A DNA stretch of 35,498 nucleotides from Clostridia bacterium DTU084 (GTDB taxonomy: Bacteria; Bacillota; DTU084): positions 1 through 35,498 of the forward strand of contig LFTB01000066.1 of NCBI GenBank assembly GCA_001512905.1, written 5' to 3'. This document shows, in pieces, positions 6,285-35,498 of this stretch. The position numbers and the translations under genes were made by a program. The stretch's first letter is position 1. Each line of letters begins with the position of its first letter. The notes below the pieces were generated by a model, which did not search any database, had not been told where the DNA came from, and worked only from the letters and a program-made list of their open reading frames with translations.

Positions 6285-8002
6285 GTAAGCGAAAAAAGAA
6301 GAAAGAAGCGAAGAAAAAGGAGATTTTGGTTTCAGTAGAGAACCTGCAGACCCGAGCAGCCGTAATTGAAGACGGAAAGCTGGTAGAGATGTACGTAGAG
6401 CGTACTCTTCACCAGCAGGTCGCAGGAGGAATCTACAAAGGAATCGTGAAAAACGTGCTGCCTGGCATGCAAGCAGCTTTTGTTGACATCGGTTTGGAAC
6501 GCAACGCATTTCTCTATGTTGACGATATCCAGACCCAAAATAAGACCAAGGGCAAAGCCCGGATTTCTGAGATGCTCAAACCTGGCCAGCAGTTGATCGT
6601 TCAGGCTTTGAAGGAGCCTATGGGTACTAAAGGGGCAAAGATCACAAGCCAGCTGAGCATCCCCGGACGCTATCTCGTATACATGCCTGATGCAGGATAC
6701 ACAGGCATCTCCCGCCGGATCGAAAGCGATGCTGAGCGGGAGAGGCTCCGGGAAATAGCTGAGCGCTTGCGGAAGCCCCATGAGGGCCTCATTGTCCGCA
6801 CTGCAGCCGAAGGGCAGAAGGAACGGGAACTGAAGCGGGATTTGGTTTTTCTGCGGAAGCTGTACAACAAGATCAAGAAAAAAGCCAAGAAGACCAAAGC
6901 GCCAGCTCTCCTCTACAGGGATCACGATCTCGTCTACAGGTTAATGCGGGATACTTTATCTGAAGATATTGCCTCCATTCAAATCGACAGCGAAGCAGTC
7001 TACAAAAAAATAGTGGAGGCAGCCCGCACCCTCTCTCCCCGGCTGCGGAAGCAGGTCAGCCTTTATACTGGCAAAGGGCCTCTCTTTGAAAAGTACGGCA
7101 TCGAACAGGAACTTGCCAAGGCCCTCAAAAGAAGAGTGTGGCTTGACTGCGGCGGTTATCTGGTTGTGGACCAGACTGAAGCCCTGACTGTAATCGATGT
7201 GAATACAGGCAAATTTGTGGGCAGCACAGACCTTGCATCAACAGTTTTGAAGACCAATTTACAAGCGGCGGAAGAGATCGCCAGGCAATTGCGTTTGCGC
7301 AATCTTACTGGTATTATTATCGTGGACTTCATAGATATGGATACAGATGAAGACCGCAAGCTGGTGCTCAAGAAACTGGAAGAGCTTGTCGAGGCAGACC
7401 GGGTGAAAACCAATATCTTGGGCTTCACAAGGCTGGGACTTGTGGAAATAACCAGGAAAAAGGTTCAGGAAGGTTTAGGCGAGGTCTTTCAGAAGTCCTG
7501 CCCCTATTGCGAAGGGACTGGGAGGATCCTCTCTGAAGAGTCCATGGCCATCCAGGTGGAAAGGCAGCTCCGCCAGTTTTTAGCCCACAGCACCATGGAG
7601 GCAGTGCTCATTGGCGTGCATCCCCAAGTTGCAGCCATGCTCATCGGCTCCGGTGGCAGCAACCTGGCCCGCTTGGAGGAGGAGCTGAACAAAAAGATCT
7701 ACATTAAAGGCTGCGACGCCTTTCACGCTGAAGAGATGAAAATTATTTCAGCAGGCACAAGGAAAGAAGTTGAAAAGGCAGCGCTGCCTGTGGAAGTTGG
7801 GGAAAAACTTGAAGTTACCATCGAGCAGCCGCACCTTGCAAACAAACAGAACGGCATCGCGCGGCTGGAAGGCTACATCATCGATGTGGAGGGAGCAGGC
7901 AAAAAGCTGGGACAAACTTTGACAGTAGAGATTGTCAAAAGAACCCGCACCTACGCTCGAGCAAAAATTTGCAGTAAAGAAGTCGGAGGGCAAAAACAAT
8001 GA
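6281..8002 (+). CDS. rng: Ribonuclease G/E family protein
   Basis: A 573-residue endoribonuclease of the RNase E/G family, the length of RNase G without the long degradosome scaffold of RNase E. After a lysine-rich N-terminus comes an S1 domain (about 47-125). The catalytic DNase-I-like domain carries the metal-binding aspartates D306 (in VIDVNTGKFVG) and D349 (in IIIVDFIDMD). The zinc-link motif CPYC with EGTGR (C407 and C410) would join subunits into the active dimer or tetramer. It processes single-stranded AU-rich RNA, including rRNA precursors. It starts at TTG 6281 inside the preceding stop and ends with an ATGA overlap onto fhs, so it appears to share a transcript with the folate genes, an unusual pairing. 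Confidence 0.95.
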   Translation: MSKRKKKKEAKKKEILVSVENLQTRAAVIEDGKLVEMYVERTLHQQVAGGIYKGIVKNVLPGMQAAFVDIGLERNAFLYVDDIQTQNKTKGKARISEMLKPGQQLIVQALKEPMGTKGAKITSQLSIPGRYLVYMPDAGYTGISRRIESDAERERLREIAERLRKPHEGLIVRTAAEGQKERELKRDLVFLRKLYNKIKKKAKKTKAPALLYRDHDLVYRLMRDTLSEDIASIQIDSEAVYKKIVEAARTLSPRLRKQVSLYTGKGPLFEKYGIEQELAKALKRRVWLDCGGYLVVDQTEALTVIDVNTGKFVGSTDLASTVLKTNLQAAEEIARQLRLRNLTGIIIVDFIDMDTDEDRKLVLKKLEELVEADRVKTNILGFTRLGLVEITRKKVQEGLGEVFQKSCPYCEGTGRILSEESMAIQVERQLRQFLAHSTMEAVLIGVHPQVAAMLIGSGGSNLARLEEELNKKIYIKGCDAFHAEEMKIISAGTRKEVEKAALPVEVGEKLEVTIEQPHLANKQNGIARLEGYIIDVEGAGKKLGQTLTVEIVKRTRTYARAKICSKEVGGQKQ

Positions 8003-9636
8003 ATGACTTAGAGATCCTGCAGAACAGGCAGCCTCTTCCCATAGGTGAGATCGCGGCACAGCTGGGCTTAGGAGAAGAGGATCTGGAGTATTACGGCAAA
8101 TACAAGGCCAAAGTTCACCTGGACGTGTTGGCCAAACCTGCAAAGGGAAAATTAATCTACGTTACCGCCATCAACCCCACCCCTGCAGGAGAAGGGAAGA
8201 CCTGTACAGCCATCGGCCTTACCCAAGCTTTAGGGAAACTGGGAAAAAAAGCAACTTGTTCTTTGCGAGAACCTTCCTTGGGCCCCACCTTCGGCATGAA
8301 GGGTGGAGCCACAGGTGGAGGTTACGCCCAGCTGGTTCCCATGGAGGATATCAACCTCCACTTCACAGGGGACATGCACGCAGTGGCTGCAGCCCATAAC
8401 CTCCTTGCAGCACTGGTGGACAACCACCTCTTCAGAGGCAACAAGCTGGGCTTGGATCCCAGAACCATCACCTGGCGGCGGGTTCTGGACATGAACGACC
8501 GAAGCCTCAGGGAGATCATCACAGGCGTGGGCAGCATGGTCCGGGAAAGCGGCTTTGACATCACAGCTGCGTCAGAAGTGATGGCCATCTTGTGCCGTGC
8601 GCAGAGCTTGGAAGACCTCAAAGAGAGGCTGGGGAAGATCTTTATCGGCATGGCTAGTGGCGGCCCGGTCTGGGCTAAAGATTTAGGTGCTGCAGGTTCC
8701 ATGGCGGCGCTTTTGGTAGATGCCATTATGCCGAACCTCGTGCAGACTTTGGAAGGGCAGCCTGCTTTTGTCCACGGCGGTCCCTTTGCCAACATCGCCC
8801 ACGGCAACAGCAGCGTGCTCGCCACCAAGATAGGCTTGCGCCTTGCAGACTACGTAGTTACAGAAGGCGGCTTTGGCGCAGATTTGGGCGCTGAGAAATT
8901 CTTCGACATCATCTGCCGCGACGAGCTGAAGCCGCAAGTTGCGGTGGTTGTGGCTTCAGTCCGGGCTTTGAAGATGCACGGGGGACTCGAGAAAGCTGCC
9001 CTCGGAGAGCCGGACCTCGAAGCCTTAAGACGGGGAACTGCCAATCTGGACCGGCACCTTGAGAATTTGAAAAAGTTCGGTCTGCCCACAGTTGTGGCCA
9101 TCAACCGCTTCCCAACAGACAGCGAGCAGGAGCTGGACTGGCTCTTGAAGCACTGCCAGAGCCGAGGCGCAAGGGCTGCCATCTCCGAAGTTGTTTCAAG
9201 GGGCGGCGCAGGGGGAGTGGAGCTGGCTGAGGAAGTGCTGGCTGCCTGCGAAGAGCCGAACCATTTCCAGCCCCTCTATTCCTTGGATCTGCCCATTGAG
9301 GAGAAGCTGGAGATTCTGGCCCGGGAGATCTACAGGGCAGAGAAGGTGGAATACACTAAAGCCGCGAAAAAGCAGCTGGCCCGCTGGAAAGATTTGGGAG
9401 GAGACAAACTTCCTTTGTGTGTGGCCAAAACCCAGTATTCTTTCTCAGACAATCCCAAGCTCCTTGGAGCGCCAACTGGCTGGACCCTCACTGTCCGGGA
9501 GGTGCGGGCAGCTTTCGGTGCAGGCTTTATCATCCCTCTGACAGGCGAGATCATGACCATGCCTGGCCTTCCGAAACAGCCAGCTGCAGAGAACATAGAC
9601 ATCACACCAACTGGCCGAATCACAGGCCTGAAGTAG
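7999..9636 (+). CDS. fhs: Formate--tetrahydrofolate ligase
   Basis: A 545-residue cytoplasmic enzyme that joins formate to tetrahydrofolate with ATP, giving 10-formyl-THF; this is the entry of formate into the methyl branch of the Wood-Ljungdahl pathway. The phosphate-binding loop TPAGEGKT is at residues 61-68. Other family signatures are SLREPSLGPTFGMKGGATGG, the following MEDINLHFTGD and the C-terminal TGEIMTMPGLP. The length is close to the usual 555-560. The ATG overlaps the rng stop by four bases. The next two enzymes in the operon (folD and the pterin methyltransferase) act on later folate intermediates, so the order reflects a pathway. Confident call. Confidence 0.97.
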   Translation: MNDLEILQNRQPLPIGEIAAQLGLGEEDLEYYGKYKAKVHLDVLAKPAKGKLIYVTAINPTPAGEGKTCTAIGLTQALGKLGKKATCSLREPSLGPTFGMKGGATGGGYAQLVPMEDINLHFTGDMHAVAAAHNLLAALVDNHLFRGNKLGLDPRTITWRRVLDMNDRSLREIITGVGSMVRESGFDITAASEVMAILCRAQSLEDLKERLGKIFIGMASGGPVWAKDLGAAGSMAALLVDAIMPNLVQTLEGQPAFVHGGPFANIAHGNSSVLATKIGLRLADYVVTEGGFGADLGAEKFFDIICRDELKPQVAVVVASVRALKMHGGLEKAALGEPDLEALRRGTANLDRHLENLKKFGLPTVVAINRFPTDSEQELDWLLKHCQSRGARAAISEVVSRGGAGGVELAEEVLAACEEPNHFQPLYSLDLPIEEKLEILAREIYRAEKVEYTKAAKKQLARWKDLGGDKLPLCVAKTQYSFSDNPKLLGAPTGWTLTVREVRAAFGAGFIIPLTGEIMTMPGLPKQPAAENIDITPTGRITGLK

Positions 9637-9649
9637 GAGGGGGACAGGC

Positions 9650-10444
9650 ATGATAATTGTAGGAGAGTTAATCAACACCAGCCGCAAAGCTATGGCTGAT
9701 GCGGTAAACAGGCGGGATGAAGGTGAAATCTGCGCTGTAGCCCAGAGGCAGGCAGATTCCGGCGCCGCCTACATAGATGTGAATTGCGGCACTTTTTTGG
9801 AAGAAGAGGAGGAACTGCTTCCCTGGCTGGTCCGCATTATCCAAGAGCAGGTGGACCTGCCCCTTTGCCTTGACAGTCCTAATCCCAAGGCCCTTGCCAA
9901 GGCCTTGGAAGTGCACAGAGGCAAAGCCCTCATCAACTCCATCAGCGGCGAAGAAGAGCGCTTTGCACAAGTTTTGCCCTTGGTGAGAGAGTCAGGGGCT
10001 TCAGTAATTGCCCTCTGTATGGACGATGAGGGAATAGGCGAGGACGCTGCTTCCCGCCTCGAAGCAGGAAAAAAGCTGGGAGAGAGGCTCCTGAACGCAG
10101 GTATAGAATCTGAGCGGATTTTCTTCGATCCCCTTCTGCGGCCTGTGTCCACAGAAAGCGAAGCAGGACAGGTTGCCTTGGAAACCATCGCAAGGCTAAA
10201 ACTAGCTTTTCCTCAAAGCCACATCATCTGCGGCCTGAGCAATATCTCTTTTGGACTGCCCAAGCGCAGGCTCCTCAACCGCACATTCCTCTCCATGGCA
10301 GTGGCAAGGGGCCTGGACAGCGCCATTTTGGATCCCACAGATCCTGAGATCCGCCTCACCCTTTTGGCAGCAGAGGCGCTCTTGGGCAAGGACGAGTTCT
10401 GCCTGAACTATTTGAACAACATTAGGGAGCAGGAGGAAAACTAG
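9650..10444 (+). CDS. Methyltetrahydrofolate:corrinoid methyltransferase (pterin-binding, AcsE/MtgA-like)
   Basis: A 264-residue TIM-barrel protein of the pterin-binding family. It starts MIIVGELINTSRK, and the motifs AAYIDVNCGT, LCLDSPNPKAL, ALINSISGE, FFDPLLRPVS and GLSNISFGLP are those of methyl-THF methyltransferases. It has no cobalamin or homocysteine domain. Such enzymes move the methyl group of methyl-THF to a corrinoid protein: AcsE to the corrinoid iron-sulfur protein in acetogens, MtgA-type enzymes to a small corrinoid protein, and the central part of MetH to its own cobalamin domain. A small corrinoid protein follows two genes downstream and is the likely partner. GGAGGGGG precedes the ATG. 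I cannot tell an acetyl-CoA from a methionine or demethylation role by sequence alone. Confidence 0.88.
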   Translation: MIIVGELINTSRKAMADAVNRRDEGEICAVAQRQADSGAAYIDVNCGTFLEEEEELLPWLVRIIQEQVDLPLCLDSPNPKALAKALEVHRGKALINSISGEEERFAQVLPLVRESGASVIALCMDDEGIGEDAASRLEAGKKLGERLLNAGIESERIFFDPLLRPVSTESEAGQVALETIARLKLAFPQSHIICGLSNISFGLPKRRLLNRTFLSMAVARGLDSAILDPTDPEIRLTLLAAEALLGKDEFCLNYLNNIREQEEN

Positions 10445-11290
10445 ATGCAAATTTTGGACGGGAAAGCAACAGCCAAACAAATCCAAGGAGAGCTGTCAGC
10501 AGAGGTTCAAGCCTTGAAAGACAAGGGAATCCATCCCTCCCTGACAGTCATTCTGGTGGGCGACGATCCTGCAAGCCAGGTTTACGTGCGCAATAAAGAG
10601 CGCGCCTGTCAAAAGGTGGGAATAGAGTCCCGCACCATCCGCCTGCCGAAAGAAACCCAAGAGGCAGAACTTTTAAGCCTGATTGAAAAGTTGAACCGGG
10701 ACCCGGATGTACACGGGATTTTGGTTCAGCTTCCCCTGCCGGAAGGCATTTCCGAGGAGAAGGTAATCTGCACCATCTCGCCAGAGAAAGATGTGGACGG
10801 CTTCCATCCTGTCAGCATGGGCAGGCTCCTCCTCGGCCAGGATGGCTTCCGCTCCTGCACGCCCTACGGCATTATGGAGCTCCTCCGCCGCTATCAGCTA
10901 CCTATTGCGGGCCAGGAAGCTGTGGTTGTAGGGAGGAGCAATATTGTCGGCAAGCCCATGGCAGCCCTCCTTTTGGCAGAGAACGCAACTGTCACTGTCT
11001 GCCATTCCAGAACCCGGAACCTGGGAGAGGTAACCAGGCGCGCTGATCTTTTAGTTGTGGCAGTGGGCAAAGAAAACTTTGTGGGCAGGGAGATGGTAAA
11101 ACCTGGTGCTGTGGTCATAGACGTGGGAATAAACCGCACAGAAGCTGGCATCTGCGGTGATGTGAATTTCTCAGAGGTGAAAGAAGTAGCTTCTGCCATC
11201 ACCCCTGTGCCAGGCGGCGTCGGCCCCATGACCATCACCATGCTGTTGGCCAATACAATTCGTGCAGCGAGGAGGGCTTGCAGTGTCTGA
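10445..11290 (+). CDS. folD: Bifunctional methylene-THF dehydrogenase / methenyl-THF cyclohydrolase FolD
   Basis: A 281-residue enzyme that interconverts 10-formyl-THF, methenyl-THF and methylene-THF, linking Fhs to the methyl branch. The folate site has the Tyr/Lys pair Y47 and K51 in [15 protein letters not shown]. The Rossmann domain carries [17 protein letters not shown], and the C-terminal signature [18 protein letters not shown] is intact. The length is normal (about 280-290). The ATG follows the stop of the methyltransferase gene immediately, with GGAGG upstream, and the end overlaps the corrinoid-protein gene by eight bases. The cofactor (NAD or NADP) cannot be read with certainty. 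Confidence 0.97.
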
Positions 11291-11918
11291 TTTCAGTGCT
11301 ATAACCAAGGCGGTGATTGCAGGCAGGGCCAATGAAGTGAAAGAGTTCATCTCAGCTGCCCTGACCCAGGGAGCAGATCCTGGTCTGCTCATCAGCGAAG
11401 CTCTGATTCCCGGCATGAACACAGTCGGCGAGCGCTTTCGCAACAACCAGATGTATATTCCAGAGGTTCTGATTGCTGCCCGGGCAATGCAGAGCGGCCT
11501 AGCTGTGCTGAAGCCCCACCTGGTGGAACAAAATGTTCAGCCTGTTGGCAAAATCGTGCTTGGGACAGTAAAAGGAGACCTTCACGATATAGGCAAGAAC
11601 CTTGTGGGGATGATGTTCGAAGGGGCAGGTTTTGAGGTTATAGATTTAGGTGTGAATGTAGATGCGGAAAAGTTTGCTGCAGCAGTGGAGGAGCACGGGG
11701 CACAGCTCTTGGGCCTTTCCGCACTCCTTACAACCACCATGCCTCAAATGCAGAAAACCATCGCCGCATTGGAAGAAGCAGGCCTTCGCAAGAAGGTGTA
11801 CGTCTTAATCGGCGGTGCGCCTGTGACCCAGGAGTATGCTGAAAAAATCGGGGCAGACGGCTATGCGCCAGATGCAGCCTCAGCAGTTGTTAAAGCCAGG
11901 GAACTTTTGGGGATTTAG
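11283..11918 (+). CDS. Small corrinoid (B12-binding) methyl-carrier protein
   Basis: About 211 residues in the two-domain layout of MtbC/MtgC-type corrinoid proteins: a helical cap (about 5-85, with [12 protein letters not shown] and [12 protein letters not shown]) and a Rossmann-like cobalamin domain. The lower-ligand motif DLHDIGKN has its histidine near residue 101, and [13 protein letters not shown] and LIGGAPVT follow. It would carry a methyl group on cobalt between methyltransferases. The likely donor enzyme is the pterin methyltransferase two genes upstream. The frame is open from GTG 11262, but GTG 11283 has GAGGAGG at 11269-11275 with a 7-base spacer, so I use it. A homocysteine methyltransferase domain that lacks its own cobalamin domain lies at 33961 and is a candidate acceptor. 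A terminator follows at once. Confidence 0.9.
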
Positions 11919-12026: not shown

Positions 12027-12356
12027 GTGAAAAAGACTTTGGATCTTGAGCCCATCCTAAAGAAGCTTGTGGATAAAATCGTTGCTGTGGCAAATCCTGA
12101 GCGGATCATTCTGTTCGGCTCTGCTGCCCGGGGAGAGAGGGGGCCTGATAGCGATTTGGATGTTTTGGTAGTAAAAGATGGAGATTATAAAAAGAATAGA
12201 AGAGCAGCAAAAGATATTTATAGGAATTTATTTGGGATCGGCCTTCCTGTGGACGTGATTGTGGTCACTCCTGCTGAAATAGAAGAATATAGGGATTGCC
12301 CGTATAGTATAATCTCACCTGCCCTGCGCGAGGGGAGGGAAATCTATCATGCTTGA
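12027..12356 (+). CDS. MNT-type nucleotidyltransferase (antitoxin of a HEPN/MNT module)
   Basis: A 109-residue minimal nucleotidyltransferase. The signature GSAARGERGPDSDLDVLV gives G31-S32 and the metal-binding D43 and D45, with the third acidic residue at D76 in LPVDVIVV. In HEPN/MNT toxin-antitoxin pairs such proteins neutralise the HEPN ribonuclease, in studied cases by adding AMP to it. All catalytic residues are present. It begins at GTG 12027 with GGTGAG just upstream, and its stop overlaps the HEPN start by eight bases. The partner is frameshifted, which may leave this gene without a target. A second, unrelated copy of such a pair lies at the right end of the window. Confidence 0.87.
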   Translation: MKKTLDLEPILKKLVDKIVAVANPERIILFGSAARGERGPDSDLDVLVVKDGDYKKNRRAAKDIYRNLFGIGLPVDVIVVTPAEIEEYRDCPYSIISPALREGREIYHA

Positions 12357-12740
12357 AAATGACGTACGAAATCCTTTCGAGTGGCTGAGAAGAGCGCGGA
12401 GCGATCTTGCAATTGCAAAAAGCCTGATTTGGACGATTTGTGTTTTCACGCTCAGCAGGCAGCTGAAAAAGCGCTCAAGGGTGTTCTTGTGGCGCATGGT
12501 GCAGTTTTTCCGAGGAGCCATTCTATTGGACTACTGTTTGAATTAATTTCTAAAATACAAATCAAGGTACCTCAGGAATTAATGGAGGAAGCTAGTGAAT
12601 TGACAATTTACGCAGTACAAGCTCGCTATCCAGGTGACCATGTAGTAGACTTTGATGAATATCGGGAGGCTGCAGCAACAGCTGAAAAAGTTGTCCGGTG
12701 GGCGGAGGAACATGTGAAGAGATTCTCAGACAACCAATGA
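12349..12740 (+). pseudogene. HEPN-domain protein, frameshifted (toxin partner of the MNT gene)
   Basis: Two frames make up one HEPN protein of about 130 residues. ATG 12349, with GAGGGGAGGGA upstream, gives NPFEWLRRARSDLAIAK. The rest (KPDLDDLCFHAQQAAEKAL and onward) lies in the -1 frame and runs to the stop at 12738-12740. The junction is the five-A run at 12417-12421; one extra A would restore a continuous frame. The C-terminal half keeps an R-x4-H motif (RYPGDH), the active-site pattern of HEPN ribonucleases. As written, the first frame stops at 12546. Possible explanations are loss of one A (inactivation), an assembly error in a homopolymer, or ribosomal slippage. I favour inactivation because the partner module at the other end is also frameshifted. 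Confidence 0.83.
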
Positions 12741-21042: not shown

Positions 21043-21627
21043 ATGAATTGGATTTGGTTCGTCGCAAGTTACCTGCTCGGCTCCCTTTCGCCAGGTACAT
21101 ACCTGGCAAAGGCAGCAGGAGTGGATATCCAAAAAAGCGGCAGCGGCAACCCCGGAGCCACAAACGCTCTCCGCACAGCTGGCTGGAAGGTTGGTTTGTC
21201 GGTTTTGTTTCTGGACGCTTTCAAAGGCTTCCTGCCTGTATTTCTCTGCCTGCGCTGGGGTCCGGCCTCCTTCAGTCCCTGGGTGGGCTTGGCTGCAATT
21301 TTGGGTCATAATTGGTCTGCCCTCCTGAAGCTGAGAGGGGGCAAGGGCATGGCCACAAGTTTGGGAGTTATGATCGCCCTCTCTCCCCTTACTGCTCTGA
21401 TATTATTTGGCATATGGCTTTTAATTCTGCTTTTGAGCCGCTATGTATCTTTGGCCTCAATTGTGGCAGGGCTCTTTGCAGGGCCTGTGCTTTATTGGGC
21501 AGGCAAGCCTAAGGGCTATGTGATTATGGGCGTGATCGCAAGTCTTCTGATCGTTTACAGACACCGCTCTAATATTTCTCGGCTCATAGCAGGGACGGAA
21601 TATCGTTTTGGAGAGAAAGCTAAATGA
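21043..21627 (+). CDS. plsY: Glycerol-3-phosphate acyltransferase PlsY
   Basis: A 194-residue integral membrane enzyme that transfers the acyl group of acyl-phosphate to glycerol-3-phosphate, the first step of phospholipid synthesis. The active-site loops are present: GSGNPGATNALR near residues 33-44 and GGKGMATSLG near 99-108. About five hydrophobic helices are visible. It ends with an ATGA overlap onto gpsA, whose product supplies its substrate glycerol-3-phosphate, so the pair forms a functional unit. Length is normal. Confidence 0.96.
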   Translation: MNWIWFVASYLLGSLSPGTYLAKAAGVDIQKSGSGNPGATNALRTAGWKVGLSVLFLDAFKGFLPVFLCLRWGPASFSPWVGLAAILGHNWSALLKLRGGKGMATSLGVMIALSPLTALILFGIWLLILLLSRYVSLASIVAGLFAGPVLYWAGKPKGYVIMGVIASLLIVYRHRSNISRLIAGTEYRFGEKAK

Positions 21628-22652
21628 GGGCAGCGGTTTTAGGCGCTGGCGGCTGGGGCACTGCACTGGCAGTTCATCTGGCCCGCTTAGGCTGGGAGGT
21701 TGCATTGTGGGCCAGGCGGGAAAGCTTTGCCAGAGAGCTGCAGAAAACCAGGGAAAACCGAGTTTACCTACCGGGGATTAAGCTCCCTGATGAAATTACC
21801 CCTCTCTGCCAGCTTGACGAGGCCCTATCCCATAAAGACCTTGTCATCCTTGCCATACCCAGTCAGGTGCTGCGGGCTTCCCTTGAACAAATTCCGTCTT
21901 TTTATTGGCAAGGGGAGCCTCTGATTTTGCAGGCTGCCAAGGGGCTTGAGCTCAGCACACTGCAGCGCCTCTCTCAGGTAGCTGCATCCTGCATTCCCCA
22001 AAGGCTTGCCTCGCGAATTGTGGTGCTCTCAGGGCCCAATCACGCAGAGGAGATTGCCCGGGGCGCTCCTGCTGCGTCTGTGGTGGCAAGCGAAGTGGAT
22101 GAGGCTGCCCACGAAGCCCAAAGGTATCTGATGGGCAAAACCTTGCGGATTTATGTCAATCAGGATCTGGTGGGAGTGGAGCTGGGAGGCGCGCTGAAGA
22201 ACATTATCGCCATAGCGGCGGGGATCTGTGACGGCCTGGAGCTGGGGGACAACACCAAGGCTACGGTCATCACAAGGGGTTTGGCTGAGATCGTCCGCCT
22301 GGGCGTAAAGCTGGGAGGAAAACCATCAACCTTTGCCGGCTTATCTGGCATGGGGGATCTCATTGCCACAGCCTGCAGCACTCACAGCCGAAACTGGCGG
22401 GCTGGCTACGAAATCGGGCAGGGAAAAGATCCAGCTGTGGTTCTTCAGGGGCCGCAGGTGGTGGAGGGAGCACCTACCGCCCGCTCTGCTTTGGCTCTGG
22501 CAGAGAAGCTTGGTGTGCCTATGCCTATCACAGAGGGGGTCTGTGAGGTCCTAGCTGGTAAGTCGCCATTAGAGGTTGTGCACAGCTTGATGGAAAGGGA
22601 ACCTAAAATAGAGGTGGACCACAGCGGTATGTGGTCCCAGGGAGAAGTTTAA
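21624..22652 (+). CDS. gpsA: NAD(P)+-dependent glycerol-3-phosphate dehydrogenase GpsA
   Basis: A 342-residue cytoplasmic enzyme that reduces dihydroxyacetone phosphate to glycerol-3-phosphate. The Rossmann motif GAGGWGTALA is at residues 7-16. SGPNHAEEIARG and VELGGALKNIIAIAAGICDG contain the substrate-binding and catalytic lysine region, and GLSGMGDLIATACS follows. Length is normal (330-345). In related Clostridia spoIVA normally follows directly; here about 3.3 kb of intron and toxin-like genes intervene. Confidence 0.97.
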   Translation: MRAAVLGAGGWGTALAVHLARLGWEVALWARRESFARELQKTRENRVYLPGIKLPDEITPLCQLDEALSHKDLVILAIPSQVLRASLEQIPSFYWQGEPLILQAAKGLELSTLQRLSQVAASCIPQRLASRIVVLSGPNHAEEIARGAPAASVVASEVDEAAHEAQRYLMGKTLRIYVNQDLVGVELGGALKNIIAIAAGICDGLELGDNTKATVITRGLAEIVRLGVKLGGKPSTFAGLSGMGDLIATACSTHSRNWRAGYEIGQGKDPAVVLQGPQVVEGAPTARSALALAEKLGVPMPITEGVCEVLAGKSPLEVVHSLMEREPKIEVDHSGMWSQGEV

Positions 22653-22677: not shown

Positions 22678-22703
22678 ACACGGAGGGATCAACCTCCGTG
22701 TTT
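22678..22703 (+). terminator. gpsA terminator, T run interrupted by the group II intron
   Basis: A 9-bp stem (22678-22686 with 22693-22701) with a 6-base loop, then only a short T run before the intron-like sequence starts. Six T residues occur right after the intron's apparent 3' end (23203-23208), so excision would rebuild a normal U-tract. Confidence 0.75.
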
Positions 22704-23203
22704 GCATTTGCGACAGGCAATCGCACGAGGGGCTGTCTGAAGGAGATGCGGGAGGTGAGAGGCCGCAAGCTGACGAACAGACCCAAATGCGTAATGCGTG
22801 AATCACGAAACGTCCAGTCAGGTCGGCGACTGCGCGAAGATAACGGGAAGGAAGCCAAAACCTGCTGCTCTAATGAACCGCCAGGGTAGCAGGGGCCTGT
22901 TAGGTGTCGGGTATGTTCGGAAGGCGGATGCGAGACCGGGTGAGGCAACCTTCTTACCTACAATGTAGGGTGCCAGCATATATGGAATGCTGAAATTGCT
23001 ATCATTGATGGAGGAGTCGCAGGGAAGTACAAAGGTGACCAGAGCTACTCTTGGAACCGAAAGAAGTGCGACTGCATGGCTTAGCAGGGATAAATGCTGT
23101 AAATGATAACAGTTACGCTAATGCGGTAACAACGTGCCGTATGCCTCAATAGGGCACGAACGGTTTGATGAGGGGGGAGCCATGCATATGGTTCTCCTAC
23201 TCT
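22704..23203 (+). ncRNA. Group II intron RNA without an encoded reverse transcriptase
   Basis: About 500 bases of highly structured, non-coding sequence. The 3' part reads as domains V and VI of a bacterial group II intron: GTGCCGTATGCC with GGCACGAACGGTTT (23134-23166), then GATGAGGGGGGAGCC and its pairing partner GGTTCTCCTACTC ending near 23203. Upstream, paired and purine-rich stretches such as GGAGATGCGGGAGGTGAGAG fit domain I. No reverse transcriptase or maturase frame lies in or near it, so domain IV is empty and splicing or mobility would need a maturase from elsewhere. The boundaries are estimates: the 5' end could be anywhere from 22700 to 22710. It lies directly after the gpsA terminator stem. 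Confidence 0.8.
23134..23203 (+). other. Group II intron domains V and VI
   Basis: Domain V (23134-23166) is a 33-base hairpin with the outer GTGCCGT/ACGGTTT arms and inner GCC/GGC pairs around a short loop. Domain VI follows as a GGGGGGAGCCAT/ATGGTTCTCC hairpin (about 23173-23197) and would carry the branch-point A. Confidence 0.75.
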
Positions 23204-23297
23204 TTTTTAAATTATTATTCTAAAACAGATAATAAGCAATAGACGTTGTTACTTAAAATTTCATTTTTTGAATCTTTACGTTATATTTATTTGATAG

Positions 23298-23370: not shown

Positions 23371-23736
23371 ATGAAAAAATTTTCTGCTTCTAAACTAGCT
23401 AAAACTGTAAGAGCGAAAAGAAAAGAAAAAGGGTTAACCCAAGAACAATTAAGTGAGCTTACCGGTATAAATAGAGTAATGATCGGTCGCATTGAAAGAG
23501 AGGCTTTTATTCCTTCTATCGCTCAGTATGAATCTTTGGCTAAGGTACTTGAATTTGATCTTACTGATATGTTTGTTGAAAATCCAAAGAAGAATTCTTT
23601 TGTGGCCCTGCGCAGCCAAGCTTTAAGTGAGTCCGAAAAAGAAGGCGTAGACAAGCTTTTTGCCATGATGTTGGCTCTCAGGGAACAAATACTTTTAAGG
23701 AGCAAATTTGAAAATGAATCATTTAGTCGCTCTTAA
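23371..23736 (+). CDS. XRE-family HTH transcriptional regulator
   Basis: A 121-residue protein. Residues 8-62 form a helix-turn-helix of the Cro/CI (XRE) type (TVRAKRKEKGLTQEQLSELT, then INRVMIGRIEREAFIPS). The C-terminal half is helical and without a recognisable domain. It begins at ATG 23371 after a strong AGGAGG site (6-base spacer) and overlaps the ImmA gene. XRE regulators paired with an ImmA/IrrE protease are usually repressors cut by that protease under stress or in mobile elements. The operon has lower GC than its surroundings, a sign of transfer. Confidence 0.9.
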   Translation: MKKFSASKLAKTVRAKRKEKGLTQEQLSELTGINRVMIGRIEREAFIPSIAQYESLAKVLEFDLTDMFVENPKKNSFVALRSQALSESEKEGVDKLFAMMLALREQILLRSKFENESFSRS

Positions 23737-24592
23737 TGAAGTGCAGCTTGGAGAGATACGCAAGCTAGCTGAAGAAAAACGCCGTTTTTTAGGTTTTATA
23801 GGTGAAACGCCTATAGCCAATGATATCTTCACTATTCTTGATAATATTGGAATTTCATTGTTAGAATATCCGATAAGATCAGATGGAAAAAGATCAGCTT
23901 TTTCTGCAGCGCTTATGTATTCTACAGAAGGTAATAAAGAACTTGCTTTTATTGGGTTAAATACAGCCGACTATTTTGATAATCAAATTTTTGCTCTTGC
24001 TCATGAGCTGTATCATTTTTACACTAAGACCGGTTCTCACTTTAGCCGTTCTTCTGAAGAAGGGGATAATTTAATTGAAATAAAGGCAAATAGATTTGCT
24101 GCAGAGTTCTTGTTGCCAGAAAACACTTTGAAGAACATCGTTCTAACTGAATTTAAAACAACTTCCCTTGAGAACAAGCAATTCAAAACATTACTTCGCT
24201 TCATTGCGAGGTTGCATTGCACCTGGTGGCTTCCATACCGCTCGCTTGTTAGAAGATTAAAAGAAATTAATGGAATTTCTGACGAACAATATAGTAAATT
24301 GTACATGATTGATGAGCGAGATCAGGCTGGCGAATATTGGCGTACAGGTATGGCCATTAATGAAGAAGTATTTTCAAAGCTTAACAAGCCAACAAATAAC
24401 ATCGGTACTTCGCCAAAGAATATTGAAATAATTATTCGAAACTTTGAGGACCATCTAATCGACGAAGATAATTTCATGAAAACACTAGCCCTTTTTAATA
24501 AGAAACCTGATGATTTTGGCTATGAATTTGAAGTTTCTGCTGAAGATATAGATGAATTTGAAAGATATTTTAATAAGGGAGGTTGGCGATGA
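23714..24592 (+). CDS. ImmA/IrrE family metallo-endopeptidase
   Basis: About 292 residues. The zinc-protease motif HELYH (H99-H103 counted from TTG 23708) and a downstream EIKANRFAAEFLLP helix, which supplies the third ligand, are the family hallmark. The C-terminal 130 residues are less conserved and helical. Its likely role is cleavage of the cognate XRE repressor, switching on the operon. ATG 23714 or TTG 23708 could start it; AAGGAG at 23697-23702 serves either (spacers 11 and 5). It overlaps the XRE gene by about 23 bases and the next gene by four (ATGA), so all three are one transcript. Confidence 0.9.
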   Translation: MNHLVALNEVQLGEIRKLAEEKRRFLGFIGETPIANDIFTILDNIGISLLEYPIRSDGKRSAFSAALMYSTEGNKELAFIGLNTADYFDNQIFALAHELYHFYTKTGSHFSRSSEEGDNLIEIKANRFAAEFLLPENTLKNIVLTEFKTTSLENKQFKTLLRFIARLHCTWWLPYRSLVRRLKEINGISDEQYSKLYMIDERDQAGEYWRTGMAINEEVFSKLNKPTNNIGTSPKNIEIIIRNFEDHLIDEDNFMKTLALFNKKPDDFGYEFEVSAEDIDEFERYFNKGGWR

Positions 24593-34844: not shown

Positions 34845-34870
34845 AAGAGGCAGGCCTTAGCCTGCCTCTT
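34845..34870. terminator. Bidirectional terminator between the homocysteine operon and the minus-strand MNT gene
   Basis: A perfect 11-bp stem (34845-34855 with 34860-34870) and a 4-base loop. On the minus strand it is followed by TTTTATT, a good terminator tail; on the plus strand only a short T stretch follows. It touches the minus-strand stop codon. Confidence 0.85.
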
Positions 34871-35189
34871 AGACAATCTTGATGCCGGTGCGGATGATTT
34901 CGCTTGCAAAGGGATGGTCTTCAGAAAACTCTGAAGGCAGAAAAGGATGGGGCTCGATCCGTAAATCTACCTTACGGCGAAGCTTCAACAGGGAGAAGGT
35001 ATCGTCAATTGAATCACCACTGAAGTCTTTTGCCACTACAGCGATGTCTATATCGCTGTCTTCATGGGCTGTACCTTTCGCGTAAGAACCAAAAAGGTAG
35101 AGGTCTGTTAATTGGAACTTTTGCTGTACTGCAGCCGCATATTTCCGAGCAATATCTAAGATGATGTTTGGAGTTTTTGGATTAACCAT
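34869..35189 (-). CDS. MNT-type nucleotidyltransferase (second HEPN/MNT pair)
   Basis: A 106-residue minimal nucleotidyltransferase. The motif LFGSYAKGTAHEDSDIDIAVV gives G34-S35 and the metal ligands D46 and D48; VDLRIEPH supplies the third acid, D75. The start has GAGGAG nine bases upstream. It overlaps the HEPN gene before it by 34 bases, in the order HEPN then MNT. It resembles the gene at 12027 in fold but belongs to a different subgroup by sequence, so the two are not recent copies. Confidence 0.87.
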   Translation of the reverse strand: MVNPKTPNIILDIARKYAAAVQQKFQLTDLYLFGSYAKGTAHEDSDIDIAVVAKDFSGDSIDDTFSLLKLRRKVDLRIEPHPFLPSEFSEDHPFASEIIRTGIKIV

Positions 35190-35498
35190 TTTCTCAACTC
35201 CTCTATGTTACGGATTTGTTCTTCAGCATATTTTTTGGTGCATTTTTGATAAAAATCCAGTTTATAATCAGGGTATCTAGCCCTTATATTGAAACTGGTT
35301 ATCAAGTCTAGTAAATCTTCTTGACCTTCATCAAGTTCAACATTTGCCATTTCTGCTAGTTTCAGTAGGTTATGTGAAAAAGGTGGTTGAGTATTATTGA
35401 CTTGCACGAAATGTGCTTTTAGTAGTTTTTCAATTATTGATTCCACTGCACAAATCCCTTGTAAATCCATATTTTAGAAGGATTTTAGCCCCTCGATG
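35156..35498 (-). pseudogene. HEPN-domain protein, frameshifted and cut by the window edge
   Basis: From the right edge one minus-strand frame reads AKILLKYGFTRDLCSG and stops at 35430. Another frame then gives IIEKLLKAHFVQVNN, PPFSHNLLKLAEMANV and IRARYPDYKLDFYQKCTKKY to the stop at 35156-35158. Joined, they form a normal HEPN protein whose first residues lie outside the window; the shift lies near 35433-35450. ATG 35470 could start a 104-residue product, but it would lack the first helix. The usual R-x4-H motif reads RYPDYK, a variant without the histidine that I believe occurs in this subgroup. Confidence 0.78.

Follow-up and report, generated by a model that had tools for sequence, protein, structure and literature searches.

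In the window analysed here, namely the whole 35,498-nt stretch of DNA from Clostridia bacterium DTU084, a decayed and inert copy of a mobile group II intron very probably lies inserted behind the terminator of gpsA, and the intron belongs to a non-class-C lineage that targets terminators. Read from its sequence, the copy is a molecular fossil with nothing unusual about it, left by a mobile element of a known kind. The original prediction had placed it at 22678-23208, which gives its location properly, while the limits had to be redrawn: the stretch is now resolved into the gpsA hairpin, the tail of the terminator, the intron remains and the start of the 3' exon, as listed in Table 1.

Table 1. 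Features of the invaded gpsA terminator and of the intron remains behind it
Feature	Positions	Strand	Basis
gpsA, NAD-dependent glycerol-3-phosphate dehydrogenase, owner of the invaded terminator	21624-22652	+	Pfam PF01210 and PF07479
gpsA terminator hairpin, ACACGGAGG-GATCAA-CCTCCGTGT	22678-22701	+	folding; similar hairpins at the same place, 17/17 family sites
T-rich terminator tail, TTGCATTT, end of the 5' exon	22702-22709	+	sequence; alignment with relatives starting GTGCGAC
Remains of ORF-less group II intron, 496 nt	22710-23205	+	DNA match to C63 copy; RT-bearing relatives
Relic of the intron 5' end, GCGACAGGCAATCGCAC where relatives have GTGCGACAGGCAGTCGCAC	22710-22726	+	comparison with L068/L070
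Domains I (3' part) to III	22727-23110	+	alignment to RT-bearing relatives
Domain V, triad AGC changed to TGC, two stem mismatches	23131-23166	+	alignment, family model
Domain VI, hairpin intact, bulged A 23199, end CTCTTT for CTCTAT	23170-23205	+	alignment, family model
Start of the 3' exon, TTT	23206-23208	+	sequence

At the Rfam gathering thresholds there is no match anywhere in the window, and only with relaxed thresholds is the copy hit by RF00029 (domains V-VI, 18.5 bits against a cut-off of 40) and by RF02001 (domains I-IV, 12.4 bits against 32); as model scores, these two matches point to a group II intron. Other low-threshold matches in the window, such as the L25 leader and HOTAIR, are mostly due to chance and were discarded. 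A family covariance model for domains V-VI was then built from 15 relatives outside the own genome, with the window left out. In its alignment 99.5% of the cells are paired and five pairs are changed on both sides; columns 40 and 73, for example, hold A-U in eight relatives and G-C in seven. With this model, domains V-VI of the window (23131-23205) reach 69.4 bits with an E-value of about 7e-16, whereas with Rfam itself, the check proposed in the original prediction, the copy stays below threshold. Together with the homology to another copy on contig C63 of the same genome (DNA matches of 77% across 430 aligned positions and of 91% across 53), this score bears out the claim that a group II RNA without reverse transcriptase (RT) sits directly behind the gpsA terminator; no RT ORF is in fact present within the remains. 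The intron region as a whole also folds better than 100 of 100 shuffles (z -4.8). In the own genome the family model gives 89 bits for a copy on C124 and 45.8 bits for that on C63, and exposes further relics on C43, C15, C123 and C104. Since the family-specific model detects copies missed by the general one, genome counts of such introns are likely too low; as the window copy shows, group II introns inserted at terminators can decay below the reach of the Rfam thresholds.

The relatives in other genomes disclose what the intact element looks like. DNA matches occur in 12 of 398 genomes of the phylum (own genome included), and one of these genomes has two RT-bearing copies. With their RT as a lead, 17 loci were found in named genomes, mostly of the window's lineage. 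The hosts of this lineage include Desulforamulus aeronauticus, Pelotomaculum, Ruminiclostridium, Cytobacillus gottheilii, Neobacillus, Jeotgalibacillus, Gottfriedia and Lederbergia, among others. The original prediction had proposed to look for full-length relatives with a maturase within the own genome; none was found in its 86.5% complete assembly, and it is in Cytobacillus gottheilii that the intron (L072:3377-5551, 2175 nt) looks intact, encoding a protein of 477 aa with RVT_1 and group II maturase domains. No relative of the lineage RT was found in viral contigs, and the group II RTs in plasmids and phages are only distantly related to it, with about 40% identity or below among the matches listed. 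The RT-bearing introns inserted at terminators (loci L066-L080; Cytobacillus gottheilii, Neobacillus, Pelotomaculum, Desulforamulus and others) are of the same RNA lineage as the window copy and share a 5' end GTGCGAC(G/A)GGCAGT, a domain V GGTAAGCCGTATGCCTTAATAGGGCACGT(A/G)CGGTTTGAT and the insertion behind terminators. They carry an RT, and those of Cytobacillus, at least, are intact, whereas the window copy has no ORF and shows internal deletions and mutations.

Pairs of copies within one genome fix the boundaries. The two Cytobacillus gottheilii copies are 99.9% alike, and their likeness begins with six bases ahead of GTGCGAC, of which five form a common T run, and ends right after TTTAT, which sets the 3' boundary; for two Desulforamulus aeronauticus copies the likeness starts three bases before GTGCGAC. 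From both pairs the 5' boundary falls between the T run and GTGCGAC. Moreover, all 17 readable 5' ends, that of the window included, are located directly 3' of a terminator-like hairpin: at each of these sites a hairpin of -12.5 to -21.8 kcal/mol folds from the preceding 36 bases, the last ten of which include 4-8 T, a pattern that is rare in control windows taken from the same loci. The boundary pairs and the 17 hairpins together identify the terminator tail as the insertion point, so that the relatives agree with the boundaries at the terminator given in the original prediction.

Insertion directly behind terminator hairpins is shared with group IIC introns (B.h.I1, GsI-IIC, and here those on C50, C102 and C101), yet the lineage differs from them in several respects. 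Its domain V is TAAGCCGTAT, with the triad AGC in 14 of the 15 aligned relatives (AAC in G074), while the IIC introns of the own genome and of its relatives have the domain V ACCGCCGTAT with the triad CGC, as well as a different 5' end, GTGCGCCCGGC. In a maximum-likelihood tree of 26 RTs, which is a small sample without labelled reference RTs, the 11 RTs of the lineage and the five IIC RTs form two groups with 100/100 support, and thus the lineage RTs fall outside the class C group of that tree. The domain I of both is matched by RF02001. It had already been noted that domain V does not look like the IIC type, and rightly so. The possible mismatch between class and targeting raised at the same time, with a non-IIC domain V going together with terminator insertion, has a partial precedent. 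Although homing was described as the specificity of all lineages except class C in a 2015 review (PMC4424553), a 2022 survey (PMC8919778) listed the types g6, U1 and U2, with non-class-C IEPs, as also inserting behind terminators; terminator insertion by non-C types is therefore already on record, and the g6 RNA is said to resemble class C (PMC4244168). Compared by description, the three types are like the present lineage in being non-class-C and inserting at terminators, and the lineage may be U1 or U2. In any case it shows clearly that introns with a non-IIC domain V and an RT clade of their own can target terminators, and could thus help to trace terminator recognition to a part of the RNA or of the protein; a terminator-targeting lineage with an AGC triad and a separate RT merits a line in a survey.

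The window copy has departed far from this family. Its 5' end reads GCGAC where nearly all relatives have GTGCGAC, so the GUGYG start of group II introns is gone, and its 3' end reads CTCTTT where nearly all relatives have CT(C/T)TAT, which leaves no AY/AU end. Compared with the relatives, domain I is incomplete, its 5' half having lost about 165 nt at the junction of 22726 and 22727, and most of domain IV is gone too. Of 221 columns invariant among the RT-bearing members, 52 are lost and 21 substituted in the window; in leave-one-out controls the RT-bearing members themselves differ at between 1 and 12 columns, or at 43 in the case of the most distant member, and none has lost more than one. 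Domain V departs at positions invariant in the relatives: their GGTAAGCC has become AACGTGCC, which turns the catalytic triad AGC into TGC, and two of 13 pairs are broken, though the family model still recognises the domain. Domain VI, on the other hand, keeps 13 of 13 pairs and the bulged branch A, as a group II domain VI should. The degree of decay is nevertheless relative, because the C63 copy is also changed at 16 of the invariant columns. As far as such comparison goes, the window copy is a relic of the intron and not an intact one. That the shortened form might have a conserved function was also weighed but not retained, as no second searched genome carries it.

Other copies in the own genome, whose assembly is 86.5% complete in 144 contigs, tell a similar story. 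The DNA search turned up the C63 copy, which matches at 77% over 423 nt, as well as fragments on C124, C21 and C122, and altogether at least nine copies of the window's type, the window included, are present, each damaged or cut by a contig end. The sequences on C63, C124, C21 and C122 show an intron with the start GTGCGAC and the end CTCTAT; the C124 copy, like the IIC copy on C102, lies at a contig end. The copies on C63, C21 and C122 adjoin terminator hairpins on their 5' side; half of domain V is lost from the first, the 3' part from the second, and the third retains nearly nothing except domain VI. On C15, a relic still includes what looks like the end of an RT. The RT of the window's lineage was not found in this 86.5% complete genome of 144 contigs, an assembly in which an intact copy may have escaped, and the sole substantial RT is a broken one of IIC type on C101. 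Moreover, the copies on C63 and C124 have a common short ORF-less domain IV (91% over 225 nt) and unrelated 3' flanks, which means that they occupy different sites. Because of this combination, their sequences are best explained by an ORF-less intron that would have been copied with a maturase supplied in trans. The copies on C123 and C104 (C123:1279-1352 in L123 and C104:859-925 in L124) are strongly decayed and have T runs after domain VI, as the window copy has. As for group IIC, C50 has a complete-looking ORF-less intron at 366-1010 (L029) directly 3' of a terminator, the 3' part of which recurs at another site on C102, so this ORF-less form seems to have moved too; the IIC intron of C101 (2300-4190, L028) lies behind a terminator-like hairpin, with its RT broken by several frameshifts and stops.

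Accordingly for the history of the window copy, a scenario may be proposed. A mobile intron of the non-class-C lineage, with the 5' end GTGCGAC, the AGC triad and, in intact members, an RT/maturase in domain IV, would have reverse spliced into the T-rich tail behind the gpsA hairpin. The copy was probably ORF-less at insertion or became so later, and would have depended in trans on the maturase of another copy; subsequent deletions and point mutations would then have left it an inert fossil, presumably unable to splice or to move any more. At the insertion point, the gpsA hairpin with its tail (34 nt) folds with -19.2 kcal/mol (z -6.2), and TTTGCATTT, which is the tail plus the last stem base, remains with the hairpin on the 5' side of the intron. 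Exact removal, joining 22709 to 23206, gives the hairpin followed by TTTGCATTTTTTAAA. The original prediction that the missing T run of the terminator reappears at the 3' end was thus partly correct: six T are present there (23203-23208), but TTTGCATTT stays behind on the 5' side, and three of the six align with the intron's own last bases and only the other three are 3' exon. Relatives were searched for an empty gpsA site without success, the nearest gpsA being about 50% identical and gpsA not being found in a genome of the same family.

That the element still works, as an ORF-less group II intron which splices with a trans maturase and so restores the gpsA terminator, is highly improbable. 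Domains V-VI are recognisable and domain VI retains its hairpin and bulged A; besides, ORF-less group II introns in bacteria usually accompany related IEPs (PMC4424553), and the window copy is like them in lacking an IEP and in having related introns in the same genome. Those introns, however, are taken to splice, for which an intact ribozyme and a related IEP in the genome would be needed, while the window copy has lost parts that splicing needs: the GTGCG 5' splice site is damaged, half of domain I is deleted, the triad and the 3' end are altered, and no RT of the lineage accompanies it, the broken IIC one aside. From what is generally known of group II ribozymes, an RNA damaged in this way would not splice. 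The damaged 5' splice site, triad and 3' end with the losses in domains I and IV argue for a fossil, which from its sequence we expect not to be able to splice, and the suggestion that splicing restores the terminator is not supported. A structured non-coding RNA without relation to group II introns can be practically dismissed, for the scores below the Rfam gathering thresholds, which would suit it, stand against the family-model score and against DNA homology, extending through domains I-VI, to introns with an RT which themselves exceed the Rfam thresholds for both RF00029 and RF02001.

It is also unlikely, although less so, that the relic has been co-opted as a second terminator, in which the domain VI hairpin and the six T would stop readthrough of the split gpsA terminator. 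In a pattern scan this is the only terminator-like site on the + strand in the region, its fold reaches -19.1 kcal/mol (z -4.2), no pair of domain VI is broken against two in domain V, and the T run is lengthened by an A to T substitution among the final intron bases. But an average of 0.9 such sites arises when the region is shuffled, all relatives have a long hairpin as domain VI, a T-rich target can explain the trailing T without selection, and the gpsA hairpin still has TTTGCATTT. It is just as doubtful that such a recruited fossil would end gpsA transcription and shield the gene pair downstream. The inert fossil is thus preferred.

The pair just downstream of the relic (23371-24592) consists of an HTH regulator (PF01381) and, after it and with an overlap, a gene whose product has an IrrE-like M78 peptidase domain (PF06114). 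Elsewhere in the window, ORF translations at 12027-12740 and 34869-35470 read like two pairs of nucleotidyltransferase (MNT) and HEPN genes, a pairing that is a common toxin-antitoxin-like arrangement. Finally, the translations at 7999-11918 suggest the methyl branch of the Wood-Ljungdahl pathway, with consecutive genes for formate-THF ligase, methyltransferase, FolD and a corrinoid protein.
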